From assembly GCF_012720115.1 (NCBI RefSeq), contig NZ_VNWN01000007.1:248001-312000 (forward strand): 64,000 nt of DNA. Direction: 5' to 3'. Numbering within the stretch: the stretch's first letter is position 1; every line of letters starts with the position of its first letter. Shown here one piece after another: positions 51,373-64,000 of this stretch. A model generated the notes under the pieces. That model was given only the letters and a program-made list of their open reading frames with translations. It was not told the origin of the DNA and did not search any database. Source of the DNA: Sneathiella chinensis (GTDB lineage Bacteria > Pseudomonadota > Alphaproteobacteria > Sneathiellales > Sneathiellaceae). The position numbers were made by a program, and so were the translations under genes.

Positions 51373-53709
51373 TCACCGACCATGACATTTCTTATACTTT
51401 ACACCACTACCGCAGGGACACGGACTATTTCGCCCGACCTTCTTTCTTTTAACGGGCGAGAAGGTTTCGGTTGAGCGGTTAAGCTTGATCAATCGGTCCG
51501 ACCTCGCCATTCTCATTGCATCTTCGTAGATATGGGTGTTTCCCCCCGTCTTCCCTGCAGGTATGCGGACTTCGAAAGCCTCTGCCCGACGATAAACTCC
51601 ATCAACCTCTACTTCTGCAACAAGCCCGACAACTTTAGAAGCCTTGGTAGCAAGTGCAACTGCACTAGCCTTATCGTTGACCTGAGGCCAATCAATCTGG
51701 TGGCCAGACTTCTGCAACCAAACAAAAAGTGGCTCCCCCTCACCATAGAGAGTAAAATAACAAAAAGGATGCTGCTCCAAGGTTTGACGAAAATCACATA
51801 ACATTTTTGCGAAGTTATTGCGCCCCCCCTCCCCCAGATCACGAATATGGCTTTCCGCTTCAAGCCACCCCGGATATCGAGTGGCGTCCAGTGCCCCAAG
51901 CAACTTCCGCATCTCTTCCGGGATGTCCTGTGTTGGAAAAGATTCATTTTTCCAATTCATTCCCTCGAAAGCCTTATCAACGATATCGCTCATACCATCC
52001 AAGAAAAGCATGTTCGCTTTACCCGCCCCTAACATCCTGTCAAGGTCCAGATCGAAGCGATTTTGCATCAAGTATCCACCTAGGTGATCAAACTCGTCGT
52101 AGAGACGAACCCCCTTCATCCCTGCCAAGTTTTGCCGAACCTCCATATAATGAATGAACTCGCCGGGTGTCGGCAAAAGTCGCTTGAGCACGAACAAATC
52201 GTCAATTGAAAGTGAAACGAAGGCATGCTTGCCAAGTAGAGGACCAACCTGCGGCAATTCCTTGCAATACGTGGAGAAGGGCGAGAATGACTCGACCGTT
52301 AACCCAACTGGCACCATCACACGGTAGTCCGCGCAGCGTACATTCGCACACTTTTGGTATTTTCCCGCCACGAAGTGATAGAGAGGCACTTCATCTGCAG
52401 AATTTAGATAATTGAAGAATCGCTCACACTGCTTGTATGCCTTCAGAAACAAGTCCTGTACGGACTGAGCGTGACGGTCAAAATCAAGTGCTGGCGACGC
52501 AATGGTGGCAGCGGCGCCAGCCTTGGCTTCAACTAAGAACAACACGTCATCAATCAAGATGAGTGTATCATTTTCCGACCACTGCTTGCTGATCGGATCC
52601 TTGTAGTACACCTCCTGCAGAACCGTCGCTCCCGGAAGCTGGGCGGACAGAATGTCGACAAAGGCAGCTTCGCTCATCGCCTTTTGGCGCTCCTCGAAGG
52701 TCTTTTTGTAATCCGGCTTTCGTTGAAGGAGGTTATAGAGGAGTGCACGATATCCCGCATCGCGCGCAAAACAGAAGTCTAACGCGTAGTAATCTGACCC
52801 AATCTGAATTAGGGGTTTCTTACGTGCTGGCAGTGTCCGATAGGGTGTCCCTACAAAATCCCCCGCTGCAAAAAACTCGGTATCTTCTCCGCGCCGGTAC
52901 GACAAGTCCGCTAAAAGCGTTGATGGTAACTTCGTGTGACGACTTACATTAGCAACTCCACCGCGAAACATATCATCGATCGCCTCCTCGACCGCTTTTG
53001 AGTGTTCCGGATTGGACGCTTCCCAAACCTCAACAACGTCTTCCATAGACTTGCCTTGCGCTAGAGAAAAGGCTTGCACTGCCTTACAATCCTCCATAGC
53101 CACTGTTGCAGCATCCAAAATTCCGGAGCGCATGGATTCGGCCATCTCTTGAAAGCCTTCTGCAACCTCTGCAGAACCAATACCGTACACTTCCTCCAAG
53201 ACATCATTGTGAGGAGCTAGAACGTAATTATAGAACTCACCCTCCAAAACTTGATAACGATTTCCACGAATTGTGAGCCAAGCAGATTTCGCGTGAAATT
53301 CGATTTTGGCTGTACTAGGGCCAAAGATACCACCTCTAGCATCTGCGGAAGTGGCCATAGCAAAGACTATGGCCTGCTCTCTCAATTTTATACCAAGTTC
53401 AAGTAGTTGATTGCACCGGGCTTCATCGAATATCATATCTACAGGCTCCGCGTCAGATGCCAGAACCGCGTGTACGTATTCAAGTAAGAACTGTGTTTGG
53501 TTTTTTAAATCGCTAGGGGAGTTCAAATGCTGTTGCCCTTTGGGGGCGTATCCAGTTTCCTTCGGCTCTATCAGTAGCTGAGCGTAGATATAGCCGAGCA
53601 AATCAAGCGGAGGTATTGAGACAATCAACTCACGCATTTCGGCTGCAATGACTTCCATATTTTTTAACGAAGAAGTCGCAGCCAACTTTCTATTTTCTTC
53701 TCCATACAT
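51373..53709 (-). CDS. Large SEC-C protein with PD-(D/E)XK nuclease-like motif
   Basis: The 778-residue protein belongs to no family I can name. In its middle (about 350-400) it has a restriction-endonuclease-like signature: Glu366, then Asp381 (ENDTLILID), a hydrophobic strand and Glu394-Ala-Lys396 (FLVEAKAG). The C-terminus is a SEC-C zinc motif, GRNSPCPCGSGVKYKKCHGR (759-778). The N-terminal 300 residues are helical and acidic. No signal peptide or membrane helix. ATG 53709 has GAGG upstream. Base composition is more AT-rich than the flanking genes, which suggests transfer. A nuclease role, perhaps in defence, is inference from the motif and island-like setting. Confidence 0.8.
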   Translation of the reverse strand: MYGEENRKLAATSSLKNMEVIAAEMRELIVSIPPLDLLGYIYAQLLIEPKETGYAPKGQQHLNSPSDLKNQTQFLLEYVHAVLASDAEPVDMIFDEARCNQLLELGIKLREQAIVFAMATSADARGGIFGPSTAKIEFHAKSAWLTIRGNRYQVLEGEFYNYVLAPHNDVLEEVYGIGSAEVAEGFQEMAESMRSGILDAATVAMEDCKAVQAFSLAQGKSMEDVVEVWEASNPEHSKAVEEAIDDMFRGGVANVSRHTKLPSTLLADLSYRRGEDTEFFAAGDFVGTPYRTLPARKKPLIQIGSDYYALDFCFARDAGYRALLYNLLQRKPDYKKTFEERQKAMSEAAFVDILSAQLPGATVLQEVYYKDPISKQWSENDTLILIDDVLFLVEAKAGAAATIASPALDFDRHAQSVQDLFLKAYKQCERFFNYLNSADEVPLYHFVAGKYQKCANVRCADYRVMVPVGLTVESFSPFSTYCKELPQVGPLLGKHAFVSLSIDDLFVLKRLLPTPGEFIHYMEVRQNLAGMKGVRLYDEFDHLGGYLMQNRFDLDLDRMLGAGKANMLFLDGMSDIVDKAFEGMNWKNESFPTQDIPEEMRKLLGALDATRYPGWLEAESHIRDLGEGGRNNFAKMLCDFRQTLEQHPFCYFTLYGEGEPLFVWLQKSGHQIDWPQVNDKASAVALATKASKVVGLVAEVEVDGVYRRAEAFEVRIPAGKTGGNTHIYEDAMRMARSDRLIKLNRSTETFSPVKRKKVGRNSPCPCGSGVKYKKCHGR

Positions 53710-53849: not shown

Positions 53850-56621
53850 TTATCGGATCTCTCGCCAGACGGGAGGGGAATAGTCGGAGTGTCGGCCGTC
53901 GGGGTGGGCAAGACGGGCTAGATAGCCGACCCAACGGGGAGCGGCGTTAGGATCGGGATCAGGGTTGGGGGCAGGTTGGTGTGACAGGCTGGAAAGTTGT
54001 GAGACCTCCATGGTTCCGATCGGTGCCTGAAACGGTATTCTGGCAATATCCGCGGGGGAATGGATGGCATAAATCTCAACAGTACCGCGCCCATTTGACG
54101 CCGGGAGGATGCTGGCCTGCCGGTTTGTCATGTCCACCGTCAATGATGGAACCGGCAACGGTTCCAGCGACCGCGCCCGGATAACGGAGAAATATTCGGG
54201 ACTATCCGGCCACGGGGCCTTCTGGCCGGTCGCACCGATAAATTCGGTGACAACCACCCTGAAATCCCGGCTGCCCGCTTTCATCACAACGTCATGCCAC
54301 GTAACGGTTTCGGGATAGCCCAGCGCCTCGGGCACAAAAGCCTGCGGCAGCGTAATCGCCAGTTGCTTCAGGGCCTCGGCACGGTCCGCATCCGGGAGGC
54401 GATAGTGGGTCTGTTTGTCCACACCGGCCAAGTTCAGAAGGCGGGTTTCCGAGGCACTTGATATCCGCGCTGCGGATGCCCCGTCCGGTAAGGTCCAGCG
54501 ACAGCGCCAGCGAACCTCGCCGACGGCATCGGGCCATGTGCTCCACTGTACATCGTCTGGCTGCTTGGGCGGTGTCGGCTTGATTTCATCCACCAGAATT
54601 GCCTGAACGGCCTGCGAGGGAACAGACAGGTTACCCGCCTGATCCTCTGCCAGACAAAGGGCGGATACCTGCCGCCGATATCCGTCACGGGCGGTATCCA
54701 GCGGCAGGTCATTGATCAGGGTAAGGCCTTCCGCGTCCCGCTCGACCCTTTGCCCCTGCGGCAGCGGCCAGTCAATGCGAAGATGCCCATCCCGCGCAGC
54801 CATGATCTCCTCTGCCTCGGCATAGCCTGACCGCCAGTAAATATGCAGGTATCGCAAATCCGGGGCCGCGGCAGCCATGGCATTGGTCCAGCGGAACCGG
54901 GACTGAGCCTTCGGAAAATGTTTCTCGTTCCCGGCGGAGGGATCCCCCAGCACCAGTTCCAGAGAGGCCGGTGCGGGCGGCGGCACCTCGTCCTCCACCC
55001 GGCAGGTGGTTGTCGCAATGGCGCTGGCCCGACCGAATATGTCCATATTGGCAGCCTGATACCTTTTGTTTCCATAATCCGTCAGGCTGGCGTCCCGCGC
55101 GCTCAGATGCAACTGGCCATTCTGCAATGTAGGCACCAGCAAGCCGGAGACCGGATCCGTGGGAGACAACGGATGCACAGCCCGCCCGTCTTTTCGCCAG
55201 AGCAAGGGGCGAACCGCGTGACTGTTGGGCAGGACCGTCACGGCCACCGCCGCCTGAACCGGGTTCCCGGTAGGGTCGTCAATCGCCTGCGCGCGCACCC
55301 CCGGCACGGGAACAGACGCAGGGCGCCCCGCCTTCTGATCCAGCGCACAGGCGAAAACGCGCCGGAACCCCTTCGGCACGGCGCCCCAGACTTTTGCGTT
55401 GGGGCCGTGCGCAACAAGCTGCGGCGGCAGACGCACCAGATTCATGGCCTCCCGCATGGCCGGGGTTAATTGCGAAATGTAGAGCCACATGGAGGAGACA
55501 ACCGCATCCACGCCATAGTCCCAGACCCCGCCTTCGGCGCTGTCCTCATCCCGATACCCCAGCCCCAGCAAGGCGGAGATATGGCTTTCAAAGGCCCCGG
55601 CCTGCAGCAGACCATAAAACGGAAAACCGATTTCCCCTTCCCTGCCGTCTTCATTCCTGAGCGGCTCTGCCTCCACATCATTGAGGAGGATCTGGCCGGG
55701 GGGAATCCGCTCTTCGATTTCCTGCCGGAATGCTTTTGTCTGGCTATCGGCCAGCTTTTCGGCTTGTCGGAGGACGGCCTTCTCGAACAGCATATGATCG
55801 CGCATGGACAGGGATCGTCCTGTGCCCGGCGCCGCCGGATCAGCGGGACGCTTTAGCGGGCGCATGTTTCGCAACCGTTCGAACGCCATTTGACGGAGAT
55901 CATCCGGCGCGACCACATCCGCCGTGCCTTCCCGGCAGAGCGGCGGCAGGATGGCAAGATCCTCCCAATCCCGCTGCTGATGCAGGTGGTCGGCGGTACA
56001 GTAGAGAATTTCGCGCACCACCAGCCCCCGACCGATTTGCAGTGATACGGACTGTAATTCAGCGGCGCTGATAAAAATGGCCCGGCGTAGAGCGCCGCGA
56101 TAGACGACGGGTGCAAGCCGCCGAAAGCTCTTGCGGACCGAGGCCACCTCAACGGTACTGTCCCCGCGCCGGGTGAACCCGCGCATGCGCACCATTGCCG
56201 CCAATGCCTTGCTGCCACCCTCCAGTATGACGGCGAAACGCACCCACGGCTGAAACACGGGATCCTCCCGTTCGCGCTGTTCATAGACAAATCGCATGGG
56301 CCTGCCCTGTTCACTTCGCAAGCCGAAATCAGAGGTAACGGTCGCCTGTTCGATTCGAAGCGGATGATTGGACAAATGAACCCCCGCCGCCGAGGTTGCC
56401 ACATTATGCCTTGTTATAAGAGCCCGAAAGGCCTCACTCTTTTTCCACGGCCATGTCGGTGCCGGACGGCGGCGGACACGGAACCCGGCATGAGGGAAAC
56501 CCAGTTCCGGTGACAGATGCCACCGCAAATGAGTGCCTGCGGGCAAGGCTGCATCTGCCCCGGCCTGCAACGGCAGGGCGGACAGAGATAACAAACCGGC
56601 ATCAGCCAATACTTTGGTCAT
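53850..56621 (-). CDS. Giant-protein operon, third gene: 923-aa unknown beta-rich protein
   Basis: Family not recognised. 923 residues, no signal peptide, no membrane helix. The N-terminus has a striking LPAGTHLRWHLSPELGFPHAGFRVRRR pattern (about 27-53). Further parts look like beta-sandwich segments: a region around 560-690 (SRFRWTNAM, YLHIYWRSGY, then QVSALCLAEDQAGNLS) and two near 700-900 resemble Fn3-type domains that begin with APASLEL or PLPVPSLTV edges and contain Trp-rich strands. A helical block lies near 270-320. GGAGG sits four bases before ATG 56621, and the start overlaps the stop of the 1776-residue gene (ATGA), so it is translationally coupled. Export, if any, would not be by the Sec signal route. 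Confidence 0.8.
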   Translation of the reverse strand: MTKVLADAGLLSLSALPLQAGADAALPAGTHLRWHLSPELGFPHAGFRVRRRPAPTWPWKKSEAFRALITRHNVATSAAGVHLSNHPLRIEQATVTSDFGLRSEQGRPMRFVYEQREREDPVFQPWVRFAVILEGGSKALAAMVRMRGFTRRGDSTVEVASVRKSFRRLAPVVYRGALRRAIFISAAELQSVSLQIGRGLVVREILYCTADHLHQQRDWEDLAILPPLCREGTADVVAPDDLRQMAFERLRNMRPLKRPADPAAPGTGRSLSMRDHMLFEKAVLRQAEKLADSQTKAFRQEIEERIPPGQILLNDVEAEPLRNEDGREGEIGFPFYGLLQAGAFESHISALLGLGYRDEDSAEGGVWDYGVDAVVSSMWLYISQLTPAMREAMNLVRLPPQLVAHGPNAKVWGAVPKGFRRVFACALDQKAGRPASVPVPGVRAQAIDDPTGNPVQAAVAVTVLPNSHAVRPLLWRKDGRAVHPLSPTDPVSGLLVPTLQNGQLHLSARDASLTDYGNKRYQAANMDIFGRASAIATTTCRVEDEVPPPAPASLELVLGDPSAGNEKHFPKAQSRFRWTNAMAAAAPDLRYLHIYWRSGYAEAEEIMAARDGHLRIDWPLPQGQRVERDAEGLTLINDLPLDTARDGYRRQVSALCLAEDQAGNLSVPSQAVQAILVDEIKPTPPKQPDDVQWSTWPDAVGEVRWRCRWTLPDGASAARISSASETRLLNLAGVDKQTHYRLPDADRAEALKQLAITLPQAFVPEALGYPETVTWHDVVMKAGSRDFRVVVTEFIGATGQKAPWPDSPEYFSVIRARSLEPLPVPSLTVDMTNRQASILPASNGRGTVEIYAIHSPADIARIPFQAPIGTMEVSQLSSLSHQPAPNPDPDPNAAPRWVGYLARLAHPDGRHSDYSPPVWREIR

Positions 56622-59600
56622 AGTGCCTCCAGCAATTCGTTGAGTTCCGGGACATTGGCCTGCAGCACATGCTGCCGGCCCTCAGCCGTGACGTGAAGGG
56701 TGATCGGGCCCGGCGCAATGGGCTGGGTCATGCAAACCAGCGCCCGCGTCCGTGCCACGTTGGACACGATGGCGGAAATGGCCTGAACGTGCGCATTCTG
56801 GCGGACCTCTATCTGCATTTCCTCCCCAAGAAGGGGTTCCGGCCCATCCAGCAGGATGGCTGCAACTCCATCCTCAAAAACCCTGATCTGCATCTCCGGG
56901 CTGTCTGGCGACGCAAAGGGAGAGAGCCCCAGATCCTCATAAAGCAATCCATCCAGCAAACCGTCATCCTCGCGGAAGAACGCCCCGTTTGACAGACGCC
57001 CGGACATGTGAAGGATTCGCTCGGCGGCGATACCCGGCTCGGGAATCGGCTTCACGGCGTGGGCTTCCATATGATCTTCAAGGGTCAGCCAGCGAGACGC
57101 AAGGAACCGCCATTCATGTAGCGTGACGGCAGGGCGCTGCCCCGCCGCGTCCCCCGCTACAAGCTCTGCCAGATACGCACCCGGCTCCAGCAGGGTATTG
57201 AACCGGTGGATCAAGGATATCCACACAGGGTCCTGCAGGTTCAGGCAGGGTTGTCCCTCCAGATAGTCGGACACAATGTCCTGCAACCGGGAGAGTTCCT
57301 CCTTCTTTTCAGAAAGCAGGATATCGGCCCGTTCCTGCAGCGACTGGCCGGACTCATGGGTCAGCTTCAACTGCAACTGCCTTTGGTGGGCGGCAATCCG
57401 CCCTGCGGTCAGGGCATCTGCAAAGGCAACCTGCAGGGCATTTTGCCGATAATGACACTGCCCCCTTGCCGGAACGGTATCCACCACCCAGGGGTCCGGA
57501 TCATCAGGGGCCCAAACGGGTGCCGGACTGCGCCCTCGCAAGGGATGCCTGATATCTGCCTCTGTGCGGAACCGGCCCCGGCGGGTAAATGTCTTGAACT
57601 CCGCTGCGATTTCAAGCGGCCCGTCATCATATTGCCGGGCGTGATGTGTCTGGACGGTGACCTCGATTTCATAGTCGGTATCAGGCTGCAACAGCCCTGC
57701 GGCCCCCCCGCTCGACCAATTCGCTGACTGCCCACAAAGTTCCGTAATCATTTCCACGGTTGCTTCCTGCTTGCGCTGCACCGCCTCCTGACGGGTCTGG
57801 AAATCCATATACCATTCCGCGCCAAGCATAAGCGCTCCGTAGAAACCCAGCGTCCCGTTCCCGACCGATCTGGACTGGAAGGCACTGACATTCAGGGTTT
57901 CAATACCCACTGGCAAGTGCAGCCGCCGGACCTCCCAGATTTCGCCGGGATTGATAACAAGCGTGCTGTTGAAAATGGCCTCAACCTCCAGTCCGGCTCC
58001 CTTCTCATCCCGGACGTCCAGAACAACCCCACGCCGAAGGGCAAAATACATGGATCGCCCATTCCCCCCTGCCGGAACATGCAATTGCAGCACCCCCGCA
58101 GGCGCCTGCATGCCGGCACCGCGCTGAAAGGCCTTCTGCATATCATTGTCGCGAGCGAAAACAGCCGTTGGCACTGTCAGGACAAACTTCTGGCTTTGCA
58201 GCGGCGCAGGCACCCGGAAGCGCAGGTCTTGCGGCCGGGTCAAAATCATCGACCGCAACAGGTCAAAGTTGGCCAGAAAAGCTGTATTCCCCGCACTCGG
58301 CGGCTGATAGCTGACACGGATATCCGGCCCCGGTTCTGGCGCATGCCGCTTCAGCCTGTACCACTGGTCCGCCAACAGATAAGCCGGCGACCGGGGCAGA
58401 AGCCGTTCTATCCCGAAGGTCCTTGGATCGGGCACCGTATGCGCAACGCCCAGTTCCTTGGGGCTGGGTACGATTTCACAGGCCCGCCAACTGGCAATGG
58501 CCTCACCCAGAACCTCTGCGCCGGTGCCATACCGTCGCTCCACGGGGGCATCCAGCGGTGCCATCAATGTCAGGGTGTTTCGAACCGCCTGACCGCCGCT
58601 TGCCTGATTGACGGACCCGTCCGTCGTTCCGGCAACCCCCTTGAAGGCCCATCCGCCCGGTATGGTTTTCGGCTGTCCGGCCTCTCGGATACGGATATCC
58701 GTCACAATGTGCCGCCATCCGTTTCGAACGGTGCGCCCGTCATTCGTGCGGCCAGTGGTTGCCACCTCCCAAACCGGGTCGGCCGCATCATCGGCCTGTG
58801 TCTTCACATCCCCCACAACAGGATGCAGGTTTCCAACCGACGTACGGAAAGCAACCAACAGGCCAGCATCGACGGGAACCCCTGTAACGGCACCGGCCTC
58901 ATCAATTACCTGACCGTCGAAACTGTCTCCCTGAAACAGTTGGGCGGTCCCTTGCGGGCGGGGGAATAGTGAAATGTCACTGATCGGGTTGTCGGGGTAA
59001 TGATAATCATCCGGCCAGCGGGTTTTCGCCCCCAGTCTGAAATCACCCGAAAAATTGATATCCGGCAGCGGCCACGGCAGGCCGACACTGATCCGGGCCT
59101 TGCCACTCAATTCAAAGGGATCCGGCGCAACCACCATCAGTTCTGTCCGAATACCCATATTCACCATCACACAGGCCAGACGGGCGACCAGACTGCCGTC
59201 AATAAAGACCTGCCCCACCATCATGGGCGGGCTGGCCAGACTGACCCCCAGATCAAAGCCGGCGTGAACGCTGAGTTTCAGTTCCGCAATCGCCGAGGAG
59301 AAACCGACAGACAGTCCCCCACTGCCACCATAGGCCATGGCAAAGCCCGGCAGGTTGATACCCGGCTGCGGGAAATCCTCAATTCCCTGCGTGGTGGCCA
59401 TGATATAGCTGGTCACTTCATACAGGCTCAGGGCCTTGCCAACCACCCGCGCATCCATGGGCTGGTACTGCCCCACAGACAGGGACATGTCCAGCGGTGC
59501 CCCCAGGCTGGCATCCACCTTGGCAGGGACATAGAGTTCCAGAAGACTGGTTCCCCCGGCGGCCACCTCGATGTCCGCCGTCAGTTCGGCTTTCAGGCGA

Positions 59601-61948
59601 TCATTCAAAAGGTCGAGAGAGATCGCAGCGGCAAACGGGGCGTTTACACTTCGCCCTGTGCCACCGGCAGGCAACGGCGGAGGCGGCGCAAAAAGCGATC
59701 CCTTTCCGGTAATGCCAATCACCGGGCCGGGCAAAAGGAGAAACAGACCGGCGGTGACATTCCACGATCGTCCGTCATCCGGTTGCGACCCCAGGGAAAC
59801 CGACGCACCAAAGCCCCAATGATCCCCTTTCGGCAACCATTTGGAAGCATGGGTGGTAAAGGCAGGATCTGTCCGCAGGAACCATCCCGGATAATCACCA
59901 TCCTCTGTATCCGGTCGGGCATTCTGCGCATAGGTCAACCCCATGCCATAAAGGGCGGTCCCCGTTGCCCCGAGCGGAATCCCCGGCTTGAACGACAAAT
60001 CGCCACTGAGCACAAGGGCCTTTAATCCGTCTTCCCGCGTCGAGGTCAGCAAGCCAAAATCCAGCGCGAAAAGATAATATTCCTTTTCCAGATGATGCTT
60101 TGGCAGCGTTGCCCGTCCGTCCCCGACCAGATAGGCCGTGAGAGCCGCCCGCAAGGTATCGCCCCAGGACAATTCCCCGACCTGCGGGAACGCTTCATCA
60201 CTGCGTTGCAACGATCCCTTGGCATAGAGAACACCCGGCACCAGCAGGGTCAGTTCCTGCCCGTCCCGCTTCAATTCCACCGTAAAGCGCGGCGGCGGAC
60301 CGGGGTGATAGACCAGTGACACCACGTTGGGCAGTCCGCCAATCATGAGATCCCCGGTCCCGTCAGTCTCGACCCCAAGCTCAATGACCAGCGCACCATC
60401 ATCCCGGCGCCGGAGTGTCAGCCGCTCAAGAGTGGCCTGCCCCCCGATATCCACATCCAGCGGGACCGCCAGATCAAGACGGTCGCTCAATTTCCAGTCG
60501 CTGCTGAACCCCTCGCCAGTGCGGTAGGACAGTTTTACATCCCCCGCCATCAACGACAACGGCACCGGATCGTCCATCACCTGCAATTCAGCATCCATCT
60601 CAAAGCCGAGACTGGCCAACAGGTCAAACCCATCCGCCCGCAGCGTACCCTCCATCGTCGCCTGCGTCAGGGCAAGCCGATCCCACGACAGCAAATCTGC
60701 GGCCTGCCCGGCGGACAAAGCCCCAAACAGCAGCGCCAGATCCCCTTCCCCCAGCATCGCTGCGGCGGCCGTCAGGGTTCCGCCAAGGGCAGCGGGTGGA
60801 TTATCGATGGCAACAACGGGCCCCCCCGGCGATTGGTCTGTCAGGGCCAGCATCAAACGCCACCGCGCTGACACCTCGGCAAAGGGGTCCAGTTCCAGAC
60901 GCGCCTCATATCCGACGATCCCCCCGTCCAGCGGATCAAGAGAAACCTGCCCCCCTGCCTTTGCTGTCAGGGGGTACCAGGTCCGATCGAACCCGATTTC
61001 AACGGTTTTGAGGGACAGGACGTCCCCTGCGGCCGGCGTCCGCTGCCAGCCAACGGTCCCGGTCAATCCCCGTGCATCAATGGCAAATCCTGTTGCCGTC
61101 AGTCGGGCATGCGCTGCGGCGGCGGCATCCTGTTCAGGACCGCCGGGGAAAACACGATCCAAATTCCAAACCGTCACCTCCTCTGCGAAAACACCGCGCC
61201 AGCTTTCATCGAACCCCTTATCTGCTCCCAAGGCGGCCACGCTGTTCGGCACAGGCCCATCGGCCAGTTTTACCGTCAGCGCCTTCAACTCGATCGCCAG
61301 CCCTGTTCCATCCAGCATCAAGGGCGGCAGCGTGAAACTGTCTTCGCCGTCAAACCCGACAGCCAGCCCCGCCCGGCCCGCTGTCACCGTCGCGTTCCCC
61401 AACGGAATGCGAAGCGGTCCCGCGGCGGGATCAGGCTCCACGGCAACCGACTGACCGGTAGCATCGGTGACATGCCGCCCCACCGTCAGGTAGTCACCGC
61501 CAATGACCAGTTGCACCGGAACCGGACCAAACGACACGGTAATATCCCCGAAATCAGTATCATAACGGCGGAACAATTCGTCCGGGTCCTGCAAATCCTC
61601 GTCCGCCAATTGTTCGGCCACGGCCTCCAGATCCAGTTGTCCGCTTGCAACAGCCAGCGCCGTCAGTACGGCATAAACCGGAAATGCGGCTGTTTCGATC
61701 ACAAACGGGATACGAAGAGGATCCCCAACCACCTGCCCGAAAACAACCTGAACCCCTAACAGTTCAACGGCGTTTTCTGTGTCCAGTATCACCTCACCGT
61801 GAAGGGTGACCCGGTCGCCCTGCCATTTCTCAACAATGAACTGGATCTGCGCAAAATCCGTCAGCGCGGCTAGAGCGGGAACATTCAGCAGAAACCTGTC
61901 CAGTTGTGACAGGAAACCAAGATTGCGAAGAATATGCGTTCTGTTCAT
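56618..61948 (-). CDS. Giant-protein operon, second gene: 1776-aa unknown beta-rich protein
   Basis: Largest gene here; family not recognised. 1776 residues without signal peptide. About 1-700 is a series of amphipathic strands with Leu/Gly/Asp periodicity (GGQVSLDPLDGGIVGYEARLEL style), about 620-1000 has Gly-rich strands (ALYGMGLTYAQNARPD, HWGFGASVSLGSQ, MAYGGSGGLSVGFSS) like a long beta-groove or beta-helix, with a PPPPLP spacer near 755. The C-terminal third looks like Fn3-type modules (LLQPDTDYEIEVTVQ, YRQNALQVAFAD, LHEWRFLASRWLTLEDH) with a coiled segment near 1510-1550. I cannot exclude a DUF6603-like relation. GGGGAGGGG precedes ATG 61948; the upstream gene ends 11 bases before it. 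Confidence 0.8.
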   Translation of the reverse strand: MNRTHILRNLGFLSQLDRFLLNVPALAALTDFAQIQFIVEKWQGDRVTLHGEVILDTENAVELLGVQVVFGQVVGDPLRIPFVIETAAFPVYAVLTALAVASGQLDLEAVAEQLADEDLQDPDELFRRYDTDFGDITVSFGPVPVQLVIGGDYLTVGRHVTDATGQSVAVEPDPAAGPLRIPLGNATVTAGRAGLAVGFDGEDSFTLPPLMLDGTGLAIELKALTVKLADGPVPNSVAALGADKGFDESWRGVFAEEVTVWNLDRVFPGGPEQDAAAAAHARLTATGFAIDARGLTGTVGWQRTPAAGDVLSLKTVEIGFDRTWYPLTAKAGGQVSLDPLDGGIVGYEARLELDPFAEVSARWRLMLALTDQSPGGPVVAIDNPPAALGGTLTAAAAMLGEGDLALLFGALSAGQAADLLSWDRLALTQATMEGTLRADGFDLLASLGFEMDAELQVMDDPVPLSLMAGDVKLSYRTGEGFSSDWKLSDRLDLAVPLDVDIGGQATLERLTLRRRDDGALVIELGVETDGTGDLMIGGLPNVVSLVYHPGPPPRFTVELKRDGQELTLLVPGVLYAKGSLQRSDEAFPQVGELSWGDTLRAALTAYLVGDGRATLPKHHLEKEYYLFALDFGLLTSTREDGLKALVLSGDLSFKPGIPLGATGTALYGMGLTYAQNARPDTEDGDYPGWFLRTDPAFTTHASKWLPKGDHWGFGASVSLGSQPDDGRSWNVTAGLFLLLPGPVIGITGKGSLFAPPPPLPAGGTGRSVNAPFAAAISLDLLNDRLKAELTADIEVAAGGTSLLELYVPAKVDASLGAPLDMSLSVGQYQPMDARVVGKALSLYEVTSYIMATTQGIEDFPQPGINLPGFAMAYGGSGGLSVGFSSAIAELKLSVHAGFDLGVSLASPPMMVGQVFIDGSLVARLACVMVNMGIRTELMVVAPDPFELSGKARISVGLPWPLPDINFSGDFRLGAKTRWPDDYHYPDNPISDISLFPRPQGTAQLFQGDSFDGQVIDEAGAVTGVPVDAGLLVAFRTSVGNLHPVVGDVKTQADDAADPVWEVATTGRTNDGRTVRNGWRHIVTDIRIREAGQPKTIPGGWAFKGVAGTTDGSVNQASGGQAVRNTLTLMAPLDAPVERRYGTGAEVLGEAIASWRACEIVPSPKELGVAHTVPDPRTFGIERLLPRSPAYLLADQWYRLKRHAPEPGPDIRVSYQPPSAGNTAFLANFDLLRSMILTRPQDLRFRVPAPLQSQKFVLTVPTAVFARDNDMQKAFQRGAGMQAPAGVLQLHVPAGGNGRSMYFALRRGVVLDVRDEKGAGLEVEAIFNSTLVINPGEIWEVRRLHLPVGIETLNVSAFQSRSVGNGTLGFYGALMLGAEWYMDFQTRQEAVQRKQEATVEMITELCGQSANWSSGGAAGLLQPDTDYEIEVTVQTHHARQYDDGPLEIAAEFKTFTRRGRFRTEADIRHPLRGRSPAPVWAPDDPDPWVVDTVPARGQCHYRQNALQVAFADALTAGRIAAHQRQLQLKLTHESGQSLQERADILLSEKKEELSRLQDIVSDYLEGQPCLNLQDPVWISLIHRFNTLLEPGAYLAELVAGDAAGQRPAVTLHEWRFLASRWLTLEDHMEAHAVKPIPEPGIAAERILHMSGRLSNGAFFREDDGLLDGLLYEDLGLSPFASPDSPEMQIRVFEDGVAAILLDGPEPLLGEEMQIEVRQNAHVQAISAIVSNVARTRALVCMTQPIAPGPITLHVTAEGRQHVLQANVPELNELLEAL

Positions 61949-61959
61949 GTGCCCCTCCC

Positions 61960-64000
61960 CTAAAGAACCAACCGGCGCAGCACATCATTGCGCACTTCTT
62001 CATAAACCGTGACGGACTGATTGCTGGTGGAAAGAGCGCCAATATCGGTGGCACTATAGTCCCGGCAGTTTTGGGTGCTTTCATGCAGCTTTAGAATTTT
62101 TCCCTTCTTTTCCGCATCCGTTTCCCGATTGGCCAAATTCTGTATTGCGTTCAGAACCGCCGCCGCCTCATCAATCGCGATATTCCGTCTGCCCCGGACC
62201 CTTCTGACAGCAGCCACGGCGTCCCCCACACTGAAATAGGGAGATCCACGAACCGCAAGCCGGACATAGACCGCCCGTCCCTTTTCCGTTCGAAAGTCAT
62301 TCGTGACACCCGATAATTTGCGCTTGATCCAATCCATTTCATACGCGAACAATACGGCCCGCAATGCCTGATCCTGCCGCAACGGCGCAATAAACCGATA
62401 AATCCAATGCCATGTCCGAAACCATTGCATATAAGACTGGTAAACGGCTTGTTGCCTCCGCTGCTGTGCAGAGCTCTGCTTATTCCAATCCGCACTCAAA
62501 TCAATCTTCGTCCCGTCGGCCTGTTCCACTTCGGTCAAGCCGCTAATCGTCACAATTCCTGTTCTCTCTGAGGTTTGTTCCAGCTCGCTGGCCCCCACCC
62601 CGAACCCCCCGAAGGCTCCGTGATAAATTGCCGCCAGCTTGTCCTTCAGCTTCCCTCGCAATTCCTCCACCTCGGACTGCTCGGACGGATACGGGGATGG
62701 AAAATCAGGCAATGTATCGGCCGTGACATCCGGGTAAATACTTTTCAGAAAAACGTCATCTGGCGCCTGCAACCAACGAATAAGGGGGGACATCAGGCCT
62801 GGGCGGGCCTTGTTATTCAGTTCACTCCCCGGCAAGCTCAATGTGTGATGGAAAGTCGGATATGAAAAGACCGAACTGTCATAAGCGTTTAAACCGTCAA
62901 AATGACCACGAGCCTCGACCTCCCCGACGGCAGCAAGCACCCGGAAGGCGCTCAGGAACCGCTCTCGCCGCTCCCGCTCCTTCCGCTCTGTTTCCGTTTC
63001 ATCCGGCCCCGGTGTCCCCGGTCTCCAGTCCGCCGCCGGCACACCAAGGATATTGTCCGGGGTCAGATCAACAGTCGGGTGATTTTTACCGCTGGCCGGC
63101 CCTCCCCAGCCACCAGTCCCATAGTATGCCAGAACTTGAGCCTGATCATCCGCCCCGAAATAGCCGGACCGGTCCACCACATACATACGATATCCATTAG
63201 AAGGGGCCTGATCCGTCTGCACCAGATTTTCTACAGGGGATTTAGGGATCGTAATCGTTTCCTCATCACTTATCTTCTTCTTCTCCATAGCCACACCATG
63301 CGGGTCATCATTAGAACCCGCAACGACCACAACCGGGTATCGCAACCGCTGGAACCGCCAGCGGCGCAGGTTTTCAGCTTCGCAAAGCCGCAGTTCACCG
63401 TTCACATTTTTACTAGGTGAATTCGATGCAACGCGCGTCTCAATGGACGTATCATTGTGCCGGGCAACCACATGTAGACGGTCTGTGTAATGCGGTTTTG
63501 CGTCCAGTCGTTCCGCAACATGATTGGGATAGCGAGACGCCAGTTGAAACTCCCGCACTGCCCAACCGGTATTCCCGGCCTTGAGCGCTTTTCTCAACGT
63601 CTCCCCACCGTCACTTGCAGGCCGATCGCCTGCCTTGCCGTCATACTTCTGCTTGCCGCTGCTCCAACGCCGATAGGCATAAAAGCCCTTGTCCTGAAGC
63701 CCCAAATCAATCCCAACCGCCTTCAGGTCATTCTGAAGTACAGCAATCAGATCATCCGCAGGACGCTTATCCGGCTGAGCCGTCCCCTGATAGACGGGAA
63801 CACCGGTATCCGCTTCATCAATTGCACGATCCCTGTCACCCGGCAGGAACTGAAACGGGCCATAGGCGGTCGGAAGAAGGCCGAAAGCCGCATTCAGGTA
63901 ATCCAGCGCATCATCGGAAATAATGCCCGCCAGAACATCATACTTGCTTGTTGGGCCTGCAAGATGCCGGCCCGTACGAAAAGGGACCGTTTCCAAGGCA
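61960..64000 (-). CDS. Giant-protein operon, first visible gene (partial): PG-binding-like motif protein
   Basis: Open to the window edge; at least 678 residues counting from a TTG at 63996, with the true start probably outside. Residues about 83-155 look like a peptidoglycan-binding-type fold split by an insertion: LIAVLQNDLKAVGIDLG ... NTGWAVREFQLASRYP. The remaining part is mixed: VVVVAGSNDD (about 225), a charged helix around 340-360 (ETERKERERRERFL), and a mostly helical C-terminal half with many Trp and Arg (WFRTWHWIYRFIAPLRQDQALRAVLFAYEMDWIKRKL). No catalytic signature recognised. It is 11 bases upstream of the 1776-residue gene and surely in the same operon. Confidence 0.75.
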   Translation of the reverse strand, partial: ALETVPFRTGRHLAGPTSKYDVLAGIISDDALDYLNAAFGLLPTAYGPFQFLPGDRDRAIDEADTGVPVYQGTAQPDKRPADDLIAVLQNDLKAVGIDLGLQDKGFYAYRRWSSGKQKYDGKAGDRPASDGGETLRKALKAGNTGWAVREFQLASRYPNHVAERLDAKPHYTDRLHVVARHNDTSIETRVASNSPSKNVNGELRLCEAENLRRWRFQRLRYPVVVVAGSNDDPHGVAMEKKKISDEETITIPKSPVENLVQTDQAPSNGYRMYVVDRSGYFGADDQAQVLAYYGTGGWGGPASGKNHPTVDLTPDNILGVPAADWRPGTPGPDETETERKERERRERFLSAFRVLAAVGEVEARGHFDGLNAYDSSVFSYPTFHHTLSLPGSELNNKARPGLMSPLIRWLQAPDDVFLKSIYPDVTADTLPDFPSPYPSEQSEVEELRGKLKDKLAAIYHGAFGGFGVGASELEQTSERTGIVTISGLTEVEQADGTKIDLSADWNKQSSAQQRRQQAVYQSYMQWFRTWHWIYRFIAPLRQDQALRAVLFAYEMDWIKRKLSGVTNDFRTEKGRAVYVRLAVRGSPYFSVGDAVAAVRRVRGRRNIAIDEAAAVLNAIQNLANRETDAEKKGKILKLHESTQNCRDYSATDIGALSTSNQSVTVYEEVRNDVLRRLVL

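Follow-up and report, generated by a model that had tools for sequence, protein, structure and literature searches.

We analysed a 64,000-nucleotide stretch of the Sneathiella chinensis genome, referred to below as the window, in which three genes, designated C, A and B, follow one another in the order C-A-B. C and A are separated by 11 bases. The features of the locus are as follows.

Window 50214 to C17:316729: variable guaA-yfgM interval, 18.5 kb.
L002:13698-16460, minus strand: SF1 helicase with a C-terminal DUF2726 domain, adjoining the set (Pfam/PADLOC).
61960 to 64000, minus strand, continuing upstream on the contig: gene C, related to peptidoglycan-binding proteins (BLAST, profile).
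56618 to 61948, minus strand: gene A, 1776 aa, a divergent and very probable DUF6603-superfamily protein (translation; family evidence).
60884 to 61372, minus strand: residues 193-355 of A, an N-terminal region common to relatives, with moderate support (hhalign).
58937 to 60265, minus strand: residues 562-1004 of A, the probable DUF6603-related core with amphipathic strands (hhalign).
56816 to 57700, minus strand: residues 1417-1711 of A, a conserved C-terminal region that includes WRF..SR..TLEDH (hhalign).
53850 to 56621, minus strand: gene B, 923 aa, with a 4-base overlap between its start and the end of A (translation).
51373 to 53709, minus strand: SEC-C neighbour, 778 aa, with a C-terminal SEC-C motif (Pfam SEC-C, 3.2e-9).

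Gene A starts with an ATG that is preceded by TTTAGGGGAGGGGCAC. The coordinates and length given for it in the initial annotation were exact, and the strand, which was missing there, is the minus strand. Genes A, B and C are uninterrupted frames of 1776, 923 and 1152 codons, respectively; the last figure is for whole gene C, counted from its ATG.

An accessory interval of 18.5 kb, bounded by guaA and yfgM-bamB-der, holds the set along with the genes for the helicase and the SEC-C protein. In all six genus relatives examined, the guaA-yfgM interval measured about 1.0-9.2 kb and held different genes, and none of the helicase, C, A, B and SEC-C genes was found in it at E 1e-5. The location of the set is accessory. 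The 3' end of guaA is a reported island site, and an 8-base core has been reported for GIsul2 (PMC9376610). In the interval and guaA end searched, this core occurred a single time, where guaA ends. The two ends compared had no exact repeat of at least 12 bases in common, so that the comparison revealed no element boundary.

Gene A is rare. It was present in 1 of 95 genomes, its own, with 23 others of the genus (several incomplete) in the panel; neither A nor B was found in any of these 23, and B was thus confined to 1 of 24 genomes of the genus. Profile searches of wider scope gave 2 of 385 genomes of the class with profile A2 (own and G027), 2 of 385 with PF20248, and 2 of 398 genomes of the phylum with profile A8 (own and G480). 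The G480 gene (5.5e-4) is a canonical DUF6603 gene by BLAST (4e-81 to L009). The own genome contained one match each for A and C, C having been searched there only. No phage matched, none of the viral contigs was confirmed in four scans, and a scan of genome contigs matched 219 stretches, 2 of which were confirmed (A. oryzae and R. tropici).

Searches of plasmid records with A by tblastn returned R. tropici pRtrCIAT899c (8e-3) and Azospirillum oryzae (1e-7), and a homologue in G027, a genome of the same class, was matched by profile (4.2e-20). Searches with these three homologues led to Mycetohabitans, Paracoccus aminophilus and Azospirillum thermophilum. BLAST of A against the resulting proteins gave 1.6e-14 (A. 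oryzae), 2.2e-13 (R. tropici), 1.0e-11 (M. rhizoxinica) and 2.0e-11 (M. endofungorum), with weaker values for G027 (1.5e-4), P. aminophilus (7.2e-4) and A. thermophilum (0.012). Most of the named relatives were drawn from a plasmid collection, and the frequency of plasmids among them is therefore not informative.

The relatives carry comparable sets. In R. tropici, A. oryzae, Mycetohabitans and G027, a homologous A is accompanied by two more genes, one of them also giant, but the order differs (A-B-C in R. tropici and A. oryzae, C-A-B in G027, B-C-A in M. endofungorum and M. rhizoxinica), as does the nature of the third protein, and the A of R. tropici differs further by an OmpA-like stretch (E 0.0021, below cut-off). 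Paracoccus has A-B but C on neither side: upstream, across the record start, lies repABC, and the genes downstream encode an ABC transporter; its A has a marginal OmpA-like stretch (E 0.079). In A. thermophilum, A-B is followed by a calcium-binding protein. The genes other than A were assigned to these sets partly by position, which for B follows from its slight similarity across sets: B matched the Paracoccus B at 1.5e-4 and the A. oryzae B at 0.02 over a 20-residue stretch only. The profile of B gave a short conserved N-terminal motif at residues 28-52 (94.1%, E 1.3e-7, 25 residues; reversed 0.3%) and 53.6% for residues 665-734.

Gene C belongs to a family whose members share a gene run with a DUF6603-superfamily gene at three loci (own, A. 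oryzae and Streptomyces longwoodensis). By BLAST it matched the A. oryzae C (8e-13), a peptidoglycan-binding protein of R. ruizarguesonis (9e-12), a Nonomuraea protein (3e-10) and the gene adjoining the canonical DUF6603 gene of S. longwoodensis (2.4e-5); against the set of homologues its profile reached 99.3% (E 2.4e-20; reversed 0.1%). Its label as related to peptidoglycan-binding proteins comes from these homologues, which match PG_binding_1 (R. ruizarguesonis 9.7e-9, S. longwoodensis 1e-8, Nonomuraea 4.8e-4, the last below cut-off), whereas the own C and that of A. oryzae had no Pfam match at E <= 0.1, PG_binding_1 included. C holds a conserved E.E..FD..N.YD segment, and E853, E855, D861, N864, Y866, D867, H877, W1023 and H1024 (numbered on a 1172-residue reading) are identical in all four aligned rows (own, A. 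oryzae, R. ruizarguesonis and Nonomuraea). For the presumed catalytic part, whose pattern may be lysozyme-like, the searches made returned neither a Pfam model nor a solved structure, and the R. ruizarguesonis homologue gave weak matches to solved structures in its PG-binding part only. On the R. ruizarguesonis plasmid this C-family protein (L019:11914-13476 and neighbours) stands beside two giant genes; the giant gene compared in frame was not recognisable as A, B or C.

The third proteins of R. tropici, Mycetohabitans and G027 had no BLAST match to the own C at E <= 0.05. The Mycetohabitans gene is annotated as phospholipase D-like. The R. tropici C matched it over 39-61 residues (E about 2e-4 to 3e-4), but Pfam found nothing in the R. 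tropici protein, which may thus or may not be of the phospholipase D kind, and a sequence search of solved structures returned nothing for it. The C of G027 resembles no other C by BLAST and is without a Pfam match; a pyroglutamyl-peptidase pattern seen in it by eye gained no support from Pfam or PDB sequences and was rejected.

Selection on the sets was estimated in relatives of the window genes by the Nei-Gojobori method with our own script. The dN/dS values of A, B and C were 0.133, 0.184 and 0.117 between two R. tropici strains, and 0.246, 0.251 and 0.077 between two Mycetohabitans species. A, B and C are under purifying selection in both tested pairs.

The initial annotation had suggested DUF6603 as one of the folds to be considered for A. 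Remote homology to this family was borne out, whereas membership by the curated Pfam cut-off was not. DUF6603 (PF20248) was the sole Pfam listing for A at E <= 1, with 13.4 bits (E 0.028) against a cut-off of 27, and the match sits at residues 310-394, outside the core of residues 562-1004 found by profile comparison. A profile of seven cores (A8) aligned with that of nine canonical DUF6603 proteins (A7) at an hhalign probability of 98.4% (E 9.5e-15, 370 columns), compared with 8.8% for reversed rows and at most 0.1% in 8 of 8 column shuffles. The value was 98.5% when the own row was left out, and 98.5% again after realignment (reversed 1.5%). The own A row alone reached 0.5% against canonical DUF6603 and its reverse 0.7%; being no better than its reverse, A is thus linked to DUF6603 by way of its relatives. 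To these it is joined firmly, residues 556-1060 alone giving 99.4% against six relatives (E 3.9e-21; reversed 3.7%). A is therefore very probably related to the DUF6603 family. The A of M. endofungorum carries DUF6603 in its record annotation, and Pfam at E <= 1 lists two other domains only.

Outside the core, the N-terminal region of A aligned with the N-termini of four relatives (68.5%, E 4.6e-5; reversed 0.3%) and residues 1417-1711 with five relatives (86.7%, E 4.4e-6; reversed 0.1%). The repeated Y.v.v/F.t strands and the WRF..SR..TLEDH segment, which had been read as part of Fn3-like modules, are present and fall in this conserved C-terminal region, but the Fn3 label has no Pfam support, since for the last 700 residues Pfam listed neither Fn3 nor any other Ig-type model at E <= 1. 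By eye the region has an Ig-like pattern, perhaps of the 'Ig-like, Big_5' kind. NCBIfam listed no model for A at E <= 1, solved structures searched by sequence with A alone gave none at E <= 1, and profiles of A and C found nothing credible among solved structures.

Canonical DUF6603 proteins and A have in common an alignable core and a place in runs of giant genes, and the S. longwoodensis locus has the same C family; A differs in its own conserved C-terminal region as well as in falling short of the Pfam cut-off. Between the own B or C sets and five canonical partner-gene sets, of 3-5 sequences each, no match exceeded 10%. The runs that hold canonical DUF6603 genes (L022, L023, L024, L026, L028, L010/L041) contain giant genes that are homologous by BLAST between Streptomyces, haloarchaea, Rhizobium lusitanum and genome G259, pairs more than 90% identical and pairs within one locus being omitted. 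In the few genes of these runs scanned with Pfam, PG_binding_1 and FG-GAP stretches alone were recognised. One gene of such a run (L010:14060-17113) has at its end a weak match to pre-toxin TG (E 0.017, below cut-off). Two plasmid runs (L024:1-2435 and L026:4247-8401) lie near sets of tyrosine recombinases, which suggests carriage by transposons. A Paenibacillus DUF6603 gene (L025:1-4272) lies about 7 kb downstream of genes for baseplate V, a GH-E nuclease and an ankyrin protein. Among open-licence papers, with subscription journals mostly outside the search, no paper naming DUF6603 or PF20248 was found.

The first 1000 residues of A had been described as a regular alternation of hydrophobic and polar residues. 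The alternation is significant (hydropathy autocorrelation at lag 2 of 0.146, z = 4.7 in 500 shuffles; with negative values at lag 1, z -3.2, and at lag 3, z -4.4), but it is not uniform: it is strong in residues 551-1050 (z 4.4), weak in residues 1-550 (z 2.0) and absent from residues 1051-1776 (z 0.1), as it is from three neighbouring proteins (z -0.5, -0.2 and -1.5; C taken as the 679-residue part within the window). The contrast between the two halves of A is genuine. The lack of an export signal had been called odd for such a protein. No clear signal was seen in A by a simple hydropathy scan run without threshold or positive control, but the oddness is weakened, as none was evident either in 23 proteins (A, B and C here, 13 from relatives' sets and 7 canonical DUF6603 proteins) inspected by eye and crude hydropathy, again without a positive control. 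The best 19-residue window of A, residues 82-100, has a mean hydropathy of 1.88, high enough for a possible membrane segment.

AlphaFold2 models from three-row alignments were of low confidence for both residues 1-1060 (pLDDT 33, pTM 0.31) and residues 556-1060 (pLDDT 39, pTM 0.40), with no residue reaching 70. Both show a run of long core strands, many of 11-18 residues, whose order would make them antiparallel. In 14 of 23 strands of the low-confidence model of residues 556-1060, the long ones of model residues 89-420 picked by hand, the two faces differ by 3.32 hydropathy units, whereas shuffling within the strands gave 1.26 +/- 0.25 and never so large a difference in 2000 trials. The test is partly circular because the model sees the same alternation pattern. 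Such two-faced strands would fit a belt, a groove, a barrel or a sandwich.

A might be a lipid-binding groove or belt (a bridge-like lipid transfer protein, an AsmA/TamB-like protein or a sheet like that of apolipoprotein B), serving to move lipids or to coat them, with B and C as accessories. The strongly two-faced strands speak for this, as does the top neighbour of the model in a VIA fold search, the beta belt of apolipoprotein B-100 (Z 15.0, rmsd 6.8 over 210 residues). That model, however, has a pLDDT of 39, outer-membrane barrels follow at Z 13.1 and below, Foldseek gave no match at E <= 0.001, and no AsmA, TamB or chorein Pfam model was listed for A at E <= 1. Because model confidence is low, the fold-search neighbours were not used as evidence of fold. 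We regard a lipid groove as doubtful.

A role of the set as one module of an anti-phage defence island, together with the helicase and the SEC-C protein, appears unlikely. The three share the variable interval, and the helicase matched MkoA (3.8e-46) and MkoC (5.7e-44) in PADLOC, matches that may reflect generic helicase similarity. Against this, none of A, B and C had a match in PADLOC or PHROGs; the G+C content of the helicase and SEC-C genes is lower (0.51 and 0.49, against 0.56-0.62); and neither of these two was found at E <= 0.01 in any of nine A loci of relatives (16.7-32.5 kb each), so that they look like separate cargo.

It is quite improbable that A forms a beta barrel in the outer membrane or is a surface protein. 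The Paracoccus homologue is annotated 'outer membrane protein', and barrels dominate the match lists of the weak model, but the signal scans described above revealed no evident signal peptide in A or its relatives, and Streptomyces, Paenibacillus and haloarchaea, all of which have canonical DUF6603 relatives, are organisms without a Gram-negative outer membrane. A decayed or non-functional remnant is highly improbable: although the set is rare and divergent, with no partner of known activity, and the own gene is without a close homologue to compare, its three frames are intact and tightly ordered, and the sets of two pairs of relatives are under purifying selection.

We favour the reading that A and B form a scaffold and that C is its envelope-directed partner, with a probability of roughly 0.4. 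It draws on the recurrent contiguity of the genes, their changing order, the selection on them, the varying third protein and the signs of peptidoglycan binding, these last being the C homologues and the subthreshold OmpA-like stretch in the R. tropici A. The weak pre-toxin TG match in a canonical DUF6603 run also speaks for it. Against it stand the Paracoccus locus without C, the slight similarity of B across sets, the C of G027 that resembles no other, and the missing Pfam and structure matches for the catalytic part of C. In this scheme A would be the chief structural subunit among the products of the three genes, which form a rare accessory set. A, which has the amphipathic beta core, would probably make up, with B, a large beta-rich scaffold not exported by an ordinary signal. 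C, with its peptidoglycan-binding kin and conserved acidic/histidine segment, would be the probable enzymatic partner, a role that a phospholipase-D-like or another protein may take in other lineages. The complex would carry or present C to an envelope, which in the likeliest case would belong to another, competing cell. We infer the physical complex, the enzyme activity, the envelope target and the antagonistic role from these features together. In the own genome, contractile-sheath and VipB models (PF04984 and PF05943) each found no gene, while controls were positive in 3 and 1 of 14 genomes; with no sheath or VipB gene and no evident signal, release might occur by lysis or an unrecognised secretion route, or the role might be intracellular.

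Mosaic toxin systems with exchangeable enzyme partners, such as polymorphic toxins and Tc-like complexes, likewise combine giant structural proteins with a variable third protein. The set here lacks a recognised toxin, immunity or delivery gene, and the likeness is one of logic only. It is a long shot that DUF6603-type proteins are the shells of undescribed giant leaderless particles, in which an amphipathic beta belt or cage would carry lipid or an envelope-degrading enzyme, the enzyme being swapped from one lineage to another across a range that runs from alphaproteobacteria to actinobacteria and archaea.

Within a family that is known but uncharacterised, A represents a new and divergent variant, and the gene set that includes it is rare and accessory. 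These results define a recurring three-gene unit whose third protein varies between lineages, and join a much more divergent branch to the DUF6603 family, very probably by remote homology. On the scaffold reading, the family would also gain a testable function, that of a scaffold for an envelope-acting partner.
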